Source: Dehalococcoidia bacterium
GTDB taxonomy: Bacteria > Chloroflexota > Dehalococcoidia > DSTF01 > WHTK01
Direction: 5' to 3'
Assembly: GCA_035574915.1 (NCBI GenBank)
Contig: DATLYJ010000055.1
Location: forward strand, 1-39,303
DNA: 39,303 bases
Part shown: in pieces, positions 4,716-16,421 of the stretch
How positions within the stretch are numbered: the first letter of the stretch is position 1
Layout: each line of letters starts with the position of its first letter
The notes under the pieces: model-generated
Databases searched by the model: none
The model's input: the letters and a program-made list of their open reading frames with translations, nothing else
What the model was told of the DNA's origin: nothing
Translations under genes and position numbers: made by a program

Positions 4716-4809
4716 TGGCGGAGAGGGTGGGATTCGAACCCACGAACCCCCTTTCGGAGGTTACGCGATTTCCAGTCGCGCCTGTTCGGCCACTCCAGCA
4801 CCTCTCCGC
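4716..4809 (-). tRNA. tRNA-Ser(GGA), CCA encoded
   Basis: Read on the minus strand, a 7-bp acceptor stem GGAGAGG/CCTCTCC closes the molecule with discriminator G and an encoded CCA (4716-4718). The anticodon stem CGCGA/TCGCG presents the loop CTGGAAA, so the anticodon is GGA. A long variable arm (CCTCCGAAAGGGGG region) marks it as class II. The T-arm contains GGTTCGAATCC. All features fit tRNA-Ser decoding UCC and UCU. Confidence 0.97.
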
Positions 4810-5701: not shown

Positions 5702-5793
<92 letters not shown>

Positions 5794-8449: not shown

Positions 8450-9229
8450 CTAGATGCGCACGCCGGTGACGACCTGCCGGTGAGAGTACTCGCGCGTGAC
8501 CGGATTGAAGTCGCCGCCGCAGGTTATGAGAGTGATGGTCTCTTGCGCCGTAGAGGACACGATGCGCGTCCAGTCCCCGGAGGCAGCGTGGACCGACTCA
8601 TTCGAGGTGACGCGGTACTTGTAGCTCCGGCCGGCTACGACCAACTCGATTTCGTCGCCGACTCGGAACTTGCCGATGTCCCAGAACACGGCCTGGCAGG
8701 GCGGCGGCACCGTGCCGTTCTTGCAGGCCACCCGTCCTGAATCGACGTGACCGGCCAAGACGACGTTGCCGAAACCCGGCACGCCGCCCAGGCCCTCGTG
8801 GTTCTTGAAGTCGTAGAAGGCCACATCGTCCGGGCCATTCGGGTTCGGCATGACCCCGTCCGGGCCGACCACCTTGTAAGTCAGCGGCGCATTGACGCCG
8901 AACTTGGCGATGATGAGCCGGTCGCCGCTGCTGGCGCCGGGCATCGGGGCGTTCGGGTCGCGGGTTGCGACCGGTGTGGGCTTGTTCAGGTCGATGGTCG
9001 CTTCAGGTGTGGCAAGCGGCGTGCTCGCCGCGAGGCCGCCACTCGCGCCGTCATCCGGGTGGTCCGGGCCCGTAACGCCAGAGCCGTTCCCCCCGGATGC
9101 CAGGGACACGAACAGCACGCCGATGGCCGCTATGACGGCGAAGCCGCCGGCGATGGGCAACGCGCCCTTGCGCCGCATGAGTTCCGAAATCCGCGCTCCT
9201 ATGCCACCACTTCCTTCGGTTCCCCTCAT
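8450..9229 (-). CDS. Sortase (class E/F-like), copy 4
   Basis: A 259-residue sortase and the first of the four downstream of the surface-protein gene. A cytoplasmic basic N-terminus (ISELMRRKGALP) leads to a membrane helix (about 26-45), an Asp/Pro/Thr-rich stalk and the barrel. The triad is His161 (LAGHVDS), Cys237 (TLITCGG) and Arg251 (YSHRQVVTG). An insertion with two Cys (VACKNGTVPPPCQA) follows the His. The start is ATG 9229; the ribosome-binding site is weak. The terminator at 9331-9348 separates it from the substrate gene, so it may be transcribed by read-through or from an unrecognised promoter in the 142-nt gap. Confidence 0.92.
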   Translation of the reverse strand: MRGTEGSGGIGARISELMRRKGALPIAGGFAVIAAIGVLFVSLASGGNGSGVTGPDHPDDGASGGLAASTPLATPEATIDLNKPTPVATRDPNAPMPGASSGDRLIIAKFGVNAPLTYKVVGPDGVMPNPNGPDDVAFYDFKNHEGLGGVPGFGNVVLAGHVDSGRVACKNGTVPPPCQAVFWDIGKFRVGDEIELVVAGRSYKYRVTSNESVHAASGDWTRIVSSTAQETITLITCGGDFNPVTREYSHRQVVTGVRI

Positions 9230-10755: not shown

Positions 10756-12075
10756 CTACAGGATGGGCAGGTAGCGCTTGAGCTCGAAGTCGGTGATGTG
10801 CGAGCGGTAGGCCTCCCACTCGATCCGCTTGCTCTTCAGGAGGCTCTCGAAGACATGGTCGCCTAGGCAGGTGCGCAGCAGCTCCGAGCGCTCCGCCTCC
10901 AGCAGCGCCTCGTAGAGGCTGCCCGGCATCGTGGACGCCTCCTCGTAGGCCTCCGGGGCCGTCGCCGGGTCCCGCGCCGGTGGCAGGGGGTACTCGCGCT
11001 CGATGCCCTCCAGGCCCGCCGCCAGCAGCGCCGCGAACGCTAGGTAGGGATTGCAGGCGGCGTCCGGCGCCCGGTACTCGATGCGGGCGGCGATCTCGCG
11101 GCCCGGGCGGTACTCCGGCACGCGCAGGAGGTCGCCGCTGCTGCGGCGCGCCCATGTCAACCGCACCGGCGCCTCGAACCCGGGTACCAGGCGCTTGTAC
11201 GAGTTCACCCACTGGTTAGTGACCAGCGCGATCTCGCGCGCGTGGCGCAGGAGCCCGGCGATGAAGCCGCGGGCTACGGCCGAGAGATGTATGGGGTCCT
11301 GGGCGTCGAAGAAGGCGTTGCGTTCGCCGCGGAAGAGCGAGAGGTGGGTGTGCATGCCAGACCCGTTCTGGTCGCTGAGGGGCTTGGGCATGAAGGTCGC
11401 GTACACGCCGGCGGCCATCGCGACTTCCTTGACGACGAGGCGGCAGGTCATCGTACTGTCCGCCATCGTGAGGGCATCCGTGTAGCGGAGGTCGACCTCG
11501 TGCTGGGAGGGGGCGACCTCATGGTGACTGGACTCCACGCCGATGCCCATCTCTTCCAGCGTGAGCACGGTCTCGCGCCGCAGGTCACTGCCGGCGTCCA
11601 GGGGCGTTAGGTCGAAGTAGCCGCCGTGGTCGAGTAGCTCGGTGCCGGAGGCGTCCTTGAAGTAGAAGAACTCGATCTCGGGGCCGACGTAGAAGGTGAA
11701 GCCCAGGGCCGCCGCCCGGGCCAGGTTCCGCTTCAGCACCTGGCGAGGGTCACCTTCGAAGGGCGTCCCGTCTGGCAGGTGGATATCGCAGAACATGCGG
11801 GCGACCCGCCGCTCCCGCGGGCGCCAGGGCAGCACCTGGAACGTGCTGGGGTCCGGGATCGCCGTCATGTCGGTCTCGCCGGTGCGGGCGAAGCCCTCGA
11901 TGGCGCCGCCGTCGAAGCCGACGCCCTCTTCGAGCGCCTCCTCGAGCTCCTCGAAGGTGATCGCGAAGCTCTTCAGCGACCCGAGGATGTCCGTGAACCA
12001 CAGGCGGATGAACTTGACGTCCTGCTGGCGGCACTGCTGGAGGACGTACTCGTTGGCTGGTTGGCTTGTTGGCAT
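10756..12075 (-). CDS. Glutamine synthetase, type I-alpha-like
   Basis: A 439-residue GS that would make glutamine from glutamate, ammonia and ATP as a dodecamer. The hallmark segments are [56 protein letters not shown] and [19 protein letters not shown]. The form SSHHEVAPxQHE, the short length and the absence of an adenylylation tyrosine loop place it with GSI-alpha, whose activity is normally controlled by feedback and regulator contact. FDGGAIEGFARTGETDM departs from the usual FDGSSI...ESDM, so a changed metal or substrate geometry, or a non-canonical substrate such as a polyamine or other gamma-glutamyl acceptor, is possible. It is divergent from the GlnR-like regulator with a GlnR-type box between them. 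Confidence 0.9.
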   Translation of the reverse strand: MPTSQPANEYVLQQCRQQDVKFIRLWFTDILGSLKSFAITFEELEEALEEGVGFDGGAIEGFARTGETDMTAIPDPSTFQVLPWRPRERRVARMFCDIHLPDGTPFEGDPRQVLKRNLARAAALGFTFYVGPEIEFFYFKDASGTELLDHGGYFDLTPLDAGSDLRRETVLTLEEMGIGVESSHHEVAPSQHEVDLRYTDALTMADSTMTCRLVVKEVAMAAGVYATFMPKPLSDQNGSGMHTHLSLFRGERNAFFDAQDPIHLSAVARGFIAGLLRHAREIALVTNQWVNSYKRLVPGFEAPVRLTWARRSSGDLLRVPEYRPGREIAARIEYRAPDAACNPYLAFAALLAAGLEGIEREYPLPPARDPATAPEAYEEASTMPGSLYEALLEAERSELLRTCLGDHVFESLLKSKRIEWEAYRSHITDFELKRYLPIL

Positions 12076-12123
12076 TTGGAAGGCCGGCCAGAAAGCGAGC
12101 TAAGGGGTCGTGGCGACTTATCC

Positions 12124-12150
12124 ATGATAACGGCGGCCGGCGGCCAGCAA
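12124..12150 (-). promoter_or_regulatory. Promoter of the alpha-type glutamine synthetase gene
   Basis: On the minus strand TATCAT (12129-12124, five of six consensus bases) is preceded at 15 bp by TTGCTG (12150-12145), or at 16 bp by TTTGCT. Transcription would start near 12117, giving a leader of about 40 nt. The GlnR-type box lies immediately upstream of the -35, a standard place for an activator. Confidence 0.45.
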
Positions 12151-12160
12151 AGCAGAGCAG

Positions 12161-12176
12161 GTTAAGTTTTGGTTAC
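12161..12176. promoter_or_regulatory. GlnR-type box between GS-alpha and the regulator gene
   Basis: Plus strand GTTAA-N6-GTTAC; read on the minus strand it is GTAAC-N6-TTAAC, the 5-mer pair with 11-bp phasing used by GlnR regulators. It lies about 85 bp from both start codons and just upstream of the predicted GS-alpha -35, so it could control the synthetase and the regulator itself. Confidence 0.6.
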
Positions 12177-12248
12177 TTTGGCCCGCCGGCCTGCGATCGG
12201 CCGCTTGCGCTCAGGTCCTGGCCGCTGCCTCGGCGCGTTCGCGAGACA

Positions 12249-12254
12249 TATACT
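12249..12254 (+). promoter_or_regulatory. -10 element giving a leaderless regulator mRNA
   Basis: TATACT ends 8 nt before ATG 12263, so transcription should begin at or within a couple of bases of the start codon. There is no Shine-Dalgarno (the bases before ATG are GGCCCCAA), which agrees with a leaderless transcript. The -35 is weak. Confidence 0.5.
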
Positions 12255-12262
12255 GGCCCCAA

Positions 12263-12919
12263 ATGGCACGCGTCCTCCTCGCCTACCACTCTGAAGGCAG
12301 CGCGTTTCTCGAGCGCGACCTGGGCGCTGCCGGCTTCGAGGTGGTTGCCCGGCGCATGGTCGATGCGGACGTCCTGGCCGAGGAGCACGGCGCCGACGTC
12401 ATCGTCATTGAGTCGCCGGTGCGGATGGACGACCTGCGGCGGCTCGTGGAGAACCCGGCCCGCGGGCCTAAAACGCCCCTCGTCGTCCTGCTCCGGCCGG
12501 ACCAGCTCGGCGGCCTCGAGCCGACCCTGCCGATCGACGACTTCGTGCTCATCCCCGTGGCCGCGGAGGAGCTGGTCCTCAGGCTGCGACGCTTGATCTG
12601 GCGCAAGACCGGGCTGGATGAAGCCTCCGTCGTCCGCTACGGGGAACTGGTGATGGACCTGGCGAACTACAAGGTCTACGTCGGGGACACACCCGTGAGC
12701 CTGACCTACAAGGAGTTCGAGTTGCTGCGGTTCCTGATGGTCAACCGCGGCAAGGTCTTCACGCGTGAGGCGCTGCTCAACCGCGTGTGGGGCTACGAGT
12801 ATTACGGCGGCGCCCGCACGGTCGACGTCCACATCCGCCGCCTCCGCAGCAAGATAGAGTCCGGCTCGACCGTTTACATCGAGACCGTCCGCAACGTGGG
12901 CTACCGCTTCCCGGCGTAG
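12263..12919 (+). CDS. glnR: GlnR-like orphan OmpR-family nitrogen regulator
   Basis: A 218-residue transcription factor with an N-terminal receiver-like domain (about 1-108) and a C-terminal winged helix (about 124-217; SLTYKEFELLRFLMVNRGKV, RTVDVHIRRLRSKIE, YIETVRNVGYRF). The receiver lacks the phosphorylation machinery. Its first strand ends LAYHSEG with no acidic pair, the phosphoacceptor position reads VIVIESP with Glu instead of Asp, and the Lys of the usual KP motif is absent (LIPVAAEE). This is the pattern of actinomycete GlnR, which acts as an unphosphorylated dimer. No kinase gene is adjacent. The neighbours are GS-alpha, amt, PII and GS-beta, and GTAAC/GAAAC arrays precede them, so global nitrogen control is strongly suggested. 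The name is inferred from context plus domain features. Confidence 0.85.
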   Translation: MARVLLAYHSEGSAFLERDLGAAGFEVVARRMVDADVLAEEHGADVIVIESPVRMDDLRRLVENPARGPKTPLVVLLRPDQLGGLEPTLPIDDFVLIPVAAEELVLRLRRLIWRKTGLDEASVVRYGELVMDLANYKVYVGDTPVSLTYKEFELLRFLMVNRGKVFTREALLNRVWGYEYYGGARTVDVHIRRLRSKIESGSTVYIETVRNVGYRFPA

Positions 12920-12998
12920 TCGGCGGCGCTCAGGGCGGACGCCGGCCGCGGCGAGTCCGGAAATCGGCGTCAGGAGCCGTCCTGGCATCGTTCGCTCG

Positions 12999-13052
12999 TT
13001 AACCGAGGCGTAACCCCAACGAAACATCGCCGTAACAAGGCGGGCCTACGCT
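12999..13052 (+). promoter_or_regulatory. Four-part GlnR-type operator and promoter of amt-glnB
   Basis: TTAAC (12999-13003), GTAAC (13010-13014), GAAAC (13021-13025) and GTAAC (13032-13036) are spaced by exactly 6 nt each, giving an 11-bp period. This matches the GlnR pattern GTnAC-N6-GAAAC repeated. Ten nt after the last 5-mer comes TACGCT (13047-13052) as a -10. The leader to ATG 13117 would be about 58 nt. Confidence 0.8.
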
Positions 13053-13116
13053 CCCTGCGTTGGGTCGGAGTCCTTCTGTGCCCGGAAGGACCAGTAACTA
13101 TTGGAGGGGAGAAGGC

Positions 13117-14475
13117 ATGGAGATTAGCTCAGGCGACACCGCATGGGTCCTGGTCTCATCGGCGCTGGTGATGCTGATGACGCCGGGACTGGCGCTGTTT
13201 TACGGGGGCCTCACTCGCAGCAAGAACGTGCTCGCCACGATCATGCAGAGCTTCATCATGCTCGGCCTGATCACGGTCGAGTTCGTGCTGATCGGTTACA
13301 GCCTGGCCTTCGGGCCAGACCACTGGGGGCTCATCGGCGACTTCTCGTGGTTCGGCCTCAAGGACGTTTCCATGAGCGAGCCGGGGCCGTACGCGCCGAC
13401 AATCCCGCACCAGACCTACATGATCTTCCAGCTTATGTTCGCGGTGATTACCCCGGCGCTGATCACGGGCGCATTCGCCGAACGGGCGAAGTTCAGCACC
13501 TTCCTCGTGTTCATGCTCGCCTGGGCGATCCTCGTCTACAACCCGGTGGCGCACTGGGTCTGGGGACAGGGCGGCTGGCTCGGCGGCATCCCGGACCAGG
13601 ACGGGCAGACAGGGTTGGGCGCGCTCGACTTCGCGGGCGGCACCGTCGTGCACATCAACGCCGGTATCGCCGCGCTGGTGGCGGCCTGGCTATACGGGAA
13701 GCGCCACGGCTTCGGCCGCGAGCCGATGGAACCGCACGACGTCACGATGGTCGTGGTGGGCGCCGCGCTCCTGTGGTTCGGCTGGTTCGGCTTCAACGCC
13801 GGCAGCGCCGTCGCGGCGAGCGCCCTGGCCTCCAACGCCTTCGTCGTCACTCACGTCGCGACCGCGACGGCGGCGCTGACCTGGATGGCGTTGAGCTGGC
13901 TCGTCTCCGGCAAGCCGAGCGTCGTCGGCGCCGCGTCCGGCGCCGTCGCCGGCCTGGTCGCCATCACCCCCGCCTCGGGCTCCGTCACGCCGATGGCGGC
14001 GCTCGCTATCGGCGCCGGCGCCGGCAGCCTCTGTTACCTGGCGGTGCGTATCCGCGCCAGGGTCGGCCTGGACGACTCGCTGGACGTCGTCGGCGTGCAC
14101 GGCGTCGGCGGCACCTGGGGCGCCCTGGCCACCGGCCTCTTTGCCGTCGCCTCGGTGACGGGCGCTGCGGAGGGTCTGTTCTCCGGCGACAGCGAGCAGT
14201 TCGGCAAGCAGCTCATCGCCGTCGTCGCGACCATGGCTTACTCCGCTATCGTTACCTTCATCATCCTCAAGGTCCTGGATGCCGTGATGGGTCTGCGGGT
14301 GAGCGAAGAAGAAGAGATCATGGGGCTGGACGTCAGTCTGCACGGCGAGCGCGGTTACATCCTCGATGGCGGCCCGGGTTACTCCGGCATCCCGATCGTC
14401 GTCGCAAACGGCGGCCCCTCCTCGAGTTCGCCGCCCCAGCCCTCGCGGCCGGCAACCAGCGAGGCCACGAGCTAG
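13117..14475 (+). CDS. amt: Ammonium transporter Amt
   Basis: A 452-residue integral membrane channel for ammonium of the Amt/Mep/Rh family. The hydrophobic profile suggests 11 transmembrane helices. Family signatures include DTAWVLVSSALVMLMTPGLA at the first helix, FYGGLTRSKNVL, the pore segments NAGIAALVAAWLYGKR and GWFGFNAGSA, and the twin-His region with VVGVHGVGGTWGALATGLFA. The start is ATG 13117, preceded by TTGGAGGGGAGAAGG; upstream in-frame codons would place charged residues before the first helix. The cytoplasmic C-terminal tail (EEEIMGLDVSLHGERGY) is the usual PII contact. It is cotranscribed with the PII gene 32 nt downstream and lies behind a four-part GlnR-type operator. Confidence 0.97.
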   Translation: MEISSGDTAWVLVSSALVMLMTPGLALFYGGLTRSKNVLATIMQSFIMLGLITVEFVLIGYSLAFGPDHWGLIGDFSWFGLKDVSMSEPGPYAPTIPHQTYMIFQLMFAVITPALITGAFAERAKFSTFLVFMLAWAILVYNPVAHWVWGQGGWLGGIPDQDGQTGLGALDFAGGTVVHINAGIAALVAAWLYGKRHGFGREPMEPHDVTMVVVGAALLWFGWFGFNAGSAVAASALASNAFVVTHVATATAALTWMALSWLVSGKPSVVGAASGAVAGLVAITPASGSVTPMAALAIGAGAGSLCYLAVRIRARVGLDDSLDVVGVHGVGGTWGALATGLFAVASVTGAAEGLFSGDSEQFGKQLIAVVATMAYSAIVTFIILKVLDAVMGLRVSEEEEIMGLDVSLHGERGYILDGGPGYSGIPIVVANGGPSSSSPPQPSRPATSEATS

Positions 14476-14480
14476 GCTAG

Positions 14481-14849
<369 letters not shown>

Positions 14850-14873
14850 CCGCTGACGTGCCGGATCTGCACG

Positions 14874-14911
14874 AAATCGGCCCCAAAGTCGCGACTTTGG
14901 GGCCGATTTTT
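14874..14911 (+). terminator. Perfect 36-bp palindrome, intrinsic terminator of amt-glnB
   Basis: AAATCGGCCCCAAAGTCG (14874-14891) is followed directly by its exact reverse complement (14892-14909) and then further T residues. As RNA it gives a stem of about 16 bp with a CGCG loop, ending in a U-rich tract on either strand. It separates the PII gene from the next GlnR-type promoter. Confidence 0.85.
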
Positions 14912-14950
14912 GTCATTTTGGCCCAAATTCCTGCCATTTTCGCCGCCCAG

Positions 14951-14982
14951 GAAACAAGACCGTAACACGGCGGCCCTAAGCT
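14951..14982 (+). promoter_or_regulatory. GlnR-type box and promoter of glnA (GS-beta)
   Basis: GAAAC (14951-14955), N6, GTAAC (14962-14966), then 10 nt and TAAGCT (14977-14982) as -10. The layout GAAAC-N6-GTAAC-N10-TAnGCT is the same as in front of amt, and the intervening bases are also alike (CGGCGGCCC against AGGCGGGCC). Confidence 0.75.
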
Positions 14983-15005
14983 TCATCTACCAAGGAGGAG
15001 AAACA

Positions 15006-16421
15006 ATGCCAACACCGGAAAACGTCGCCAGGCTCATCCAAGAGAACAACATCCAGGTAATCGACCTCAAGTTCAACGACCTGCCGGGTATCTGGCAGCA
15101 CTTTTCCGTGCCGGTCGCCGAACTCGAGCACGGGATCTGGGAAGACGGCGTCGGCTTCGACGGCTCCAGCATCCGCGGCTTCCAGAAGATCCAGGAATCG
15201 GACATGAACCTGTTCCTGGACGCATCGACCGCGGTTGTCGACCCCGCTTGCGAGGTGCCTACCCTCTCGATAATTTGCGACATCTTCGACCCGCTGACGA
15301 AGAAGGAGTACACCCGCGACCCGCGCTACATCGCGAAGAAGGCTGAGGCCTATCTGAAGTCGACGGGCATCGCCGACGTTAGCTACTGGGGCCCCGAGCT
15401 CGAGTTCTTCATCTTCGACGACATCCGCTTCGACTCGACCGAGAACGCGAGCTACTACTACGTCGACTCCATCGAGGGCGAGTGGAACACGGGGCGCGAC
15501 GAGAAGCCAAACCTCGGTTACAAGCCTCGCTACAAGGAAGGCTACTTCCCCGTCCCGCCGCACGACTCCTACCAGGACCTGCGCAGCCAGATGATCATCG
15601 AGATGGCCAAGGTGGGCATCCCCGTCGAGAAGCAGCACCACGAGGTTGCCACCGCCGGCCAGGGTGAGATCGACTTCCGTTACGGGACCCTGGTCCAGAC
15701 CGCGGACCGGGTGATGATGTACAAGTACATCGTCAAGAACGTGGCCCGGAAGGCGGGCAAGGTCGCCACGTTCATGCCCAAGCCGCTCTTCGGCGACAAC
15801 GGCTCCGGCATGCACACGCACCAGAGCATCTTCAAGGACGGCCGGAACCTGATGTCCGACCCCAAGGGCTACGCGGGCATTTCCGACATCTGCAAGTGGT
15901 ACATCGGCGGGCTGCTGAAGCACGCCGCGGCCATCCTGGCCTTCGCTGCCCCCACCACCAACAGCTACAAGCGCCTGGTGCCCGGCTACGAGGCGCCTGT
16001 GAACCTCGTCTACTCCGCCCGCAACCGCTCGGCCGTGTGCCGCATCCCGATGTACACGGACCACCCTAACGCCAAGCGGATCGAGTTCCGCGCCCCGGAC
16101 CCGAGCTGCAACCCCTACCTCGCTTTCGCGGCTTGCCTCATGGCCGGCCTGGACGGGATCGAGAACAAGATCGACCCCGGCCCGCCGCTGGACAAGAACA
16201 CTTACGAGCTCTCGGAGCGAGAGCAGCGCCGCATCCGCACCGTGCCGGGCTCGCTGAACGAGGCGCTCGACGCCCTCGAGCGCGACCACGCCTTCCTGCT
16301 CAAGGGCGGGGTGTTCACTCAGGACGTAATCGACACGTGGCTGGAGTACAAGCGCCTGGAGATCCCGAAGGTGTCCATGCGCCCCCACCCGTACGAGTTC
16401 CACCTCTACTTCGACGCCTGA
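15006..16421 (+). CDS. glnA: Glutamine synthetase, type I-beta
   Basis: A 471-residue dodecameric GS for ammonia assimilation. Signature segments are [90 protein letters not shown] and [20 protein letters not shown]. The C-terminal part has [11 protein letters not shown], where the Tyr corresponds to the adenylylation site of GSI-beta enzymes, and it ends [11 protein letters not shown]. Length and a roughly 25-residue beta-type insertion (around [20 protein letters not shown]) agree. The start is ATG 15006, with AAGGAGGAG 6 nt upstream. It has its own GlnR-type box and is followed by a strong terminator, so it is a single-gene unit. Confidence 0.97.

Follow-up and report, generated by a model that had tools for sequence, protein, structure and literature searches.

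GlnR-type promoters of amt and glnA in a Dehalococcoidia bacterium of the phylum Chloroflexota

The window analysed here, a stretch of 39,303 nucleotides from a Dehalococcoidia bacterium (phylum Chloroflexota), carries a gene cluster with the order glnA2-like gene, glnR-like gene, amt, P-II gene, terminator and glnA. The glnA2-like gene (10756-12075, minus strand) codes for a second glutamine-synthetase-like protein, which matches NCBIfam TIGR00653 just above cut-off (441.7 vs 429.15), and is divergent from the glnR-like gene (12263-12919, plus strand). The latter codes for a protein of the OmpR/PhoB family with a degenerate receiver and a winged-helix domain, the proposed activator discussed below. 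All further genes of the cluster are on the plus strand. The ammonium transporter gene amt (13117-14475, ATG at 13117; NCBIfam TIGR00836 above cut-off) is followed by the gene of a P-II signal protein (glnB/glnK, 14508-14849; Pfam P-II) and by glnA, which codes for a type I glutamine synthetase (15006-16421, ATG at 15006; TIGR00653 above cut-off). A terminator scan detects an intrinsic-terminator-like hairpin of 17 pairs (14873-14910) in the gap between the P-II gene and glnA. This hairpin would separate glnA from the amt transcript, making a promoter of its own necessary for glnA. The window also has two tRNA genes (4719-4807 and 5705-5793, both minus strand) and codes for a class F sortase-like protein (8450-9229, minus strand) that scores below the family cut-off.

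The regions preceding amt and glnA feature the same succession of motifs. Direct reading gives GAAAC-ATCGCC-GTAAC-AAGGCGGGCC-TACGCT at amt (13021-13052) and GAAAC-AAGACC-GTAAC-ACGGCGGCCC-TAAGCT at glnA (14951-14982); the arrangement GAAAC-N6-GTAAC-N10-TAnGCT, which the original prediction had assigned to both promoters, is thus present at each of them. The boxes are composed of two 5-base half-sites 6 bases apart and form a direct repeat with a period of 11, the organization of GlnR boxes, for which PMC10704036 describes the half-site consensus GTnAC/GaAAC. The glnA operator has two half-sites, GAAAC (14951-14955) and GTAAC (14962-14966), the second ending 10 bases before the -10 element TAAGCT (14977-14982). 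The amt operator has four, TTAAC (12999-13003), GTAAC (13010-13014), GAAAC (13021-13025) and GTAAC (13032-13036), spaced by exactly 11 bases, and the fourth again ends 10 bases before the -10 element TACGCT (13047-13052). Further upstream half-sites in the 11-base register are absent from glnA, unlike amt. The two additional half-sites of amt limit the predicted identity of geometry to the box adjoining the -10 element, where it holds, and it is lost upstream. With the -10 element numbered -12 to -7, the two half-sites nearest to it fall at about -38 to -34 and -27 to -23, where a -35 element would lie. The distance from the end of the -10 element to the start codon is 64 bases in amt and 23 bases in glnA, and transcription would start near 13059 and 14989, respectively. 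A GlnR-type box, GTAAC-N6-TTAAC, is also found before the divergent glnA2-like gene (12161-12176, minus strand), without a clean -10 element at the 10-base place.

What is rare is a box joined to a -10 element at a fixed distance, not the box alone. The pattern GAAAC-N6-GTAAC-N10-TANNNT has two exact matches in the 3.25-Mb genome, those of amt and glnA, and the reversed control pattern has none; a mononucleotide model at 67% GC gives 0.007 expected matches and a probability of 2.4e-5 for two or more. The genome contains 22 strict pairs KWAAC-N6-KWAAC vs 8 in the control. Most of these bare boxes lack both a -10 element in register and a clear downstream gene, and one of them falls within an apparent 16S rRNA gene. 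With up to two mismatches allowed, the box shows no enrichment in the window (15 matches vs a shuffle mean of 11.1). This, together with the match between the two 10-base intervals in 8 of their 10 positions (probability by chance about 0.001), would speak for a likeness due to chance or to recent duplication of one of the promoters. Such an origin is extremely unlikely, given the two exact matches against 0.007 expected and the recurrence of the design upstream of both genes in other genera and a second phylum (see below). Duplication was rejected on the flanks as well: the 20-base blocks next to the two promoters have just 3 to 7 positions in common, which is background level and shows that no larger stretch around them is duplicated.

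A promoter scan of positions 12000-15100 finds neither a -35/-10 pair nor any sigma-70 promoter that has a -35 hexamer. The operator therefore stands in the place of the -35 element, as had been proposed. Two other modes of control were tried and rejected. The sigma-54 motif TGGCACG-N4-TTGCW, with 3 mismatches, has 35 matches in the window vs 56 in shuffles and none at the amt and glnA promoters. For an RNA switch, the Rfam search of the window finds just the two tRNAs.

The position of the boxes bears also on the direction of control. They could be repressor sites by which GlnR blocks amt and glnA, and there is precedent for this in Amycolatopsis, whose ald gene is repressed by GlnR sitting on the start site, as described in PMC4140684. 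The boxes found here are differently placed: they lie upstream of the -10 element, end 10 bases before it and replace the -35 element in promoters for which no sigma-70 -35 match was found. The same register recurs at amt and glnA of Actinomycetota, and amtB of Streptomyces coelicolor is activated by GlnR according to PMC5826061. Repression is thus a very unlikely role for these sites.

Conservation was assessed with amt and glnA loci from up to 60 relatives (30 loci for each gene, among the matches listed), which yielded 59 usable upstream regions of at least 200 bases (30 of amt and 29 of glnA). Among these listed matches, a strict half-site pair is found on the coding strand in 31 of the 59 regions, 22/30 for amt and 9/29 for glnA, which is the less uniform of the two in the class. 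The pair is absent from 8 of the 30 listed amt regions. On the opposite strand it occurs in none of the listed amt regions and in one of glnA, and the reversed control gives none for either gene. Several relatives have glnA closely behind the P-II gene and lack the box.

In the 31 regions with a strict pair, again among the matches listed, TANNNT begins exactly 10 bases past the last half-site in 15 cases vs 0.31 expected per offset, and no other offset between 0 and 30 has more than two; the rows share common ancestry, so that probabilities computed from this register, here and in the Actinomycetota counts below, overstate the case. A second count of the listed matches, which leaves out the own genome and defines the last half-site slightly more loosely, gives at offset 10 TANNNT in 12/22 and NANNNT in 17/22 for amt, and TANNNT in 2/10 and NANNNT in 4/10 for glnA. 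The interval between box and -10 element does not share this conservation. In relatives it keeps only a leading A (12/14), a T (10/14) and a C at place 5 (11/14). The GC-rich interval to which the original prediction had drawn attention is thus common to the amt and glnA promoters of this genome and not kept beyond it, and reflects mainly composition rather than a conserved element.

In a blind scan of 148 genomes from the class, the exact pattern GAAAC-N6-GTAAC-N10-TANNNT has 14 matches in 13 genomes; the backward control has 4 matches in the same genomes. The gene downstream is amt for nine of the 14 (L001, L033-L038, L042, L043), glnA for one (L002), a glnA2-like gene for one (L044) and glnII, coding for type II glutamine synthetase (NCBIfam NF041605 above cut-off), for two (L039, L040). 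In all, amt or a glutamine synthetase gene lies behind 13 of the 14 matches, and behind 11 of 12 when the two of the window are left aside; like known GlnR boxes, the pattern stands before genes of nitrogen assimilation. The two glnII genes, from genomes G066 (L039) and G112 (L040), carry the exact amt/glnA pattern, which makes type II glutamine synthetase look like a target too. The remaining match (L041) lies before a winged-helix regulator gene and is accompanied by further half-sites upstream. At this locus, on the minus strand of genome G039 around 1500-1560, five half-sites follow one another with a period of 11, and the DNA-binding domain of the encoded regulator is GlnR-like.

The register extends to Actinomycetota, sampled as the named genomes reached via the regulator search. 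Upstream of amt a half-site chain is present in 17 of the 20 rows used, and NANNNT occurs 10 bases behind it in 12 of these 17 against a mean of 0.43 at other offsets; TANNNT is found at that place in 0/17. Upstream of glnA the chain is present in 20 of 22 regions and TANNNT follows at 10 bases in 6/20. In 13 of the 14 other glnA rows the count can be taken from a degenerate fourth half-site 22 bases on, a choice made post hoc after the data were seen, and TANNNT is then found at 10 bases in 11/13. The fourth half-site of these 11 fitting rows is GAAAT, GCAAC, GTAAT or GCAAT. The -10 element therefore tends to begin 10 bases behind the last half-site for both genes and in both phyla, and the boxes of the window have the same place relative to it as in Actinomycetota, a correspondence that is in part post hoc.

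The gene adjoining amt codes for a plausible partner of these boxes. Pfam recognizes the Trans_reg_C domain in the protein encoded at 12263-12919 and does not recognize its receiver half. Its best sequence match in the PDB is GlnR of the Mycobacterium tuberculosis GlnR initiation complex (8hih, E 1e-32), and a profile built from 17 relatives of the regulator ranks first 8hig, by its title GlnR of Saccharopolyspora erythraea, and 8hih. A Streptomyces protein retrieved by the same regulator search is GlnR itself (8hih, E 5.5e-90). By sequence, the regulator is thus closest to GlnR among proteins of solved structure. Its AlphaFold model (mean pLDDT 89.8) is matched along its length by two-domain OmpR-family structures in Foldseek, in which 8hih_N has rank 15 with PhoP, MtrA and others ahead, so that the fold by itself does not point to GlnR in particular. 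In a quick tree with 105 rows and few outgroups, 98 GlnR-like rows are separated from 6 labelled paralogs and one Roseburia row with a support of 95. The nearest named records in the regulator search are from Chloroflexi and Dehalococcoidia, and in the tree the regulator of one genome of the class (L023) all but coincides with the one from a Dehalococcoidia record (L136).

Genome context agrees with an orphan regulator: no kinase gene is adjacent and the neighbours are the glnA2-like gene and amt. In several relatives of the genome glnR adjoins amt as well, and in Acidimicrobiia and Coriobacteriia it adjoins glutamine synthetase genes. The receiver departs from that of GlnR. Alignment to GlnR, which has Asp, places Glu50 at the acceptor position, and Asp was read by eye at this place in 5 of the 17 regulator rows. 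In actinobacterial GlnR the conserved receiver Asp (D48-D50) is described as needed for the dimer (PMC10704036), and the protein is for this reason named GlnR-like rather than GlnR.

The genome has 11 matches to the OmpR/PhoB family, in which operators are often built as direct repeats with a period near 11 bases. The boxes might then be bound mainly by another member, of the PhoB, RegX3 or MtrA type, in response to a different signal such as phosphate; PMC6988585 reports that some GlnR sites of Streptomyces are also bound by PhoP and MtrA. Such an assignment is improbable in view of the nitrogen genes behind 13 of the 14 class-wide matches that share this half-site and register, and of the adjacent regulator being the GlnR-like one, with 8hih and 8hig first by sequence.

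The two sites are very probably GlnR-type operators at which the -10 element follows the last half-site after a 10-base gap and the GlnR-like protein acts as activator. The original prediction had argued from the repeated spacing for one activator contacting polymerase in the same way at both genes. This is well supported by the spacing kept at amt and glutamine synthetase promoters of relatives and Actinomycetota and by the GlnR-like gene adjoining amt, and the activator would take a fixed position that substitutes for the -35 element. In the proposed mechanism, the OmpR-family protein encoded just upstream of amt would bind the 11-base direct repeats of both promoters head to tail when nitrogen is scarce. 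Seated in the -35 place, it would recruit RNA polymerase to a weak -10 element, presumably through contact with sigma region 4. Nitrogen limitation would thus switch on, rather than repress, amt together with the P-II gene, and glnA, behind the terminator, would be switched on by a separate copy of that promoter.

The promoter pair is GlnR-type and mostly ordinary, of a known kind. It shares with the GlnR regulon of Actinomycetota (Streptomyces, Mycobacterium, Amycolatopsis) the GTnAC/GAAAC half-sites with period 11, the tandem boxes before amt and glnA, the orphan OmpR-family regulator and the 10-base gap to the -10 element. It differs in the half-site next to the -10 element, GTAAC here and mostly GAAAC, GAAAT or GCAAC in Actinomycetota, in the receiver, with Glu50 instead of the Asp of actinobacterial GlnR, in the position of glnR next to amt and in glnA having one box, not two. 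GlnR of Bacilli is of the MerR type, unrelated in protein family and operator, and has only the name and the nitrogen genes in common. Another parallel in design is the PHO box, which also stands in the -35 place 10 bases from the -10 element and whose PhoB half-site differs in sequence from the GlnR-type half-site. PhoB, as described in PMC4415409, binds direct repeats head to tail and contacts sigma-70, as proposed for the regulator of amt and glnA; it requires phosphorylation, according to the same source, and its genes differ from those found here.

A search of the literature by title retrieved no paper on GlnR in Chloroflexi, Chloroflexota or Dehalococcoidia. The modest novelty is probably GlnR-type control outside Actinomycetota, in Chloroflexota, by a regulator without the usual receiver aspartate; a switch described for actinobacteria would probably extend to this phylum. 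It is possible, at slightly less than even chances, that this type of control predates the separation of Chloroflexota and Actinomycetota or passed between them, and that the Chloroflexota receiver, often devoid of the acceptor, senses nitrogen status without phosphorylation, perhaps via the clustered P-II protein. Where the acceptor site had been lost in this way, nitrogen status would have to arrive by such a route. Since the acceptor residue is not kept, comparison of these regulators may reveal by what means GlnR senses nitrogen status. The sequence rule GWAAC-N6-GWAAC-N10-TANNNT gives few false matches and finds nitrogen promoters in uncultured bacteria.

A relaxed form of the pattern has four matches in the own genome vs none in the control. 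The fourth of them, TTAAC-N6-GAAAC-N10-TACACT at G000:C81:4456-4487 (L106), precedes an ORF of 133 residues whose product has no match in Pfam or NCBIfam; the ORF is possibly an unfamiliar nitrogen gene, or the match is due to chance. The third lies before an operon coding for a P-II protein, a Mo-oxidoreductase, a NarK-like transporter, a ferredoxin-nitrite-reductase-like protein (NirA-like; 534.8 bits vs a cut-off of 594) and a second P-II protein. This nitrite-assimilation operon (G000:C39:2328-6523; L105, L242) shares the promoter design of amt and glnA and both begins and ends with a P-II gene. Among four relatives, the promoter of its P-II gene has no box in two (L245, L248), boxes without the register in one (L247) and the 10-base register in the other (L246).
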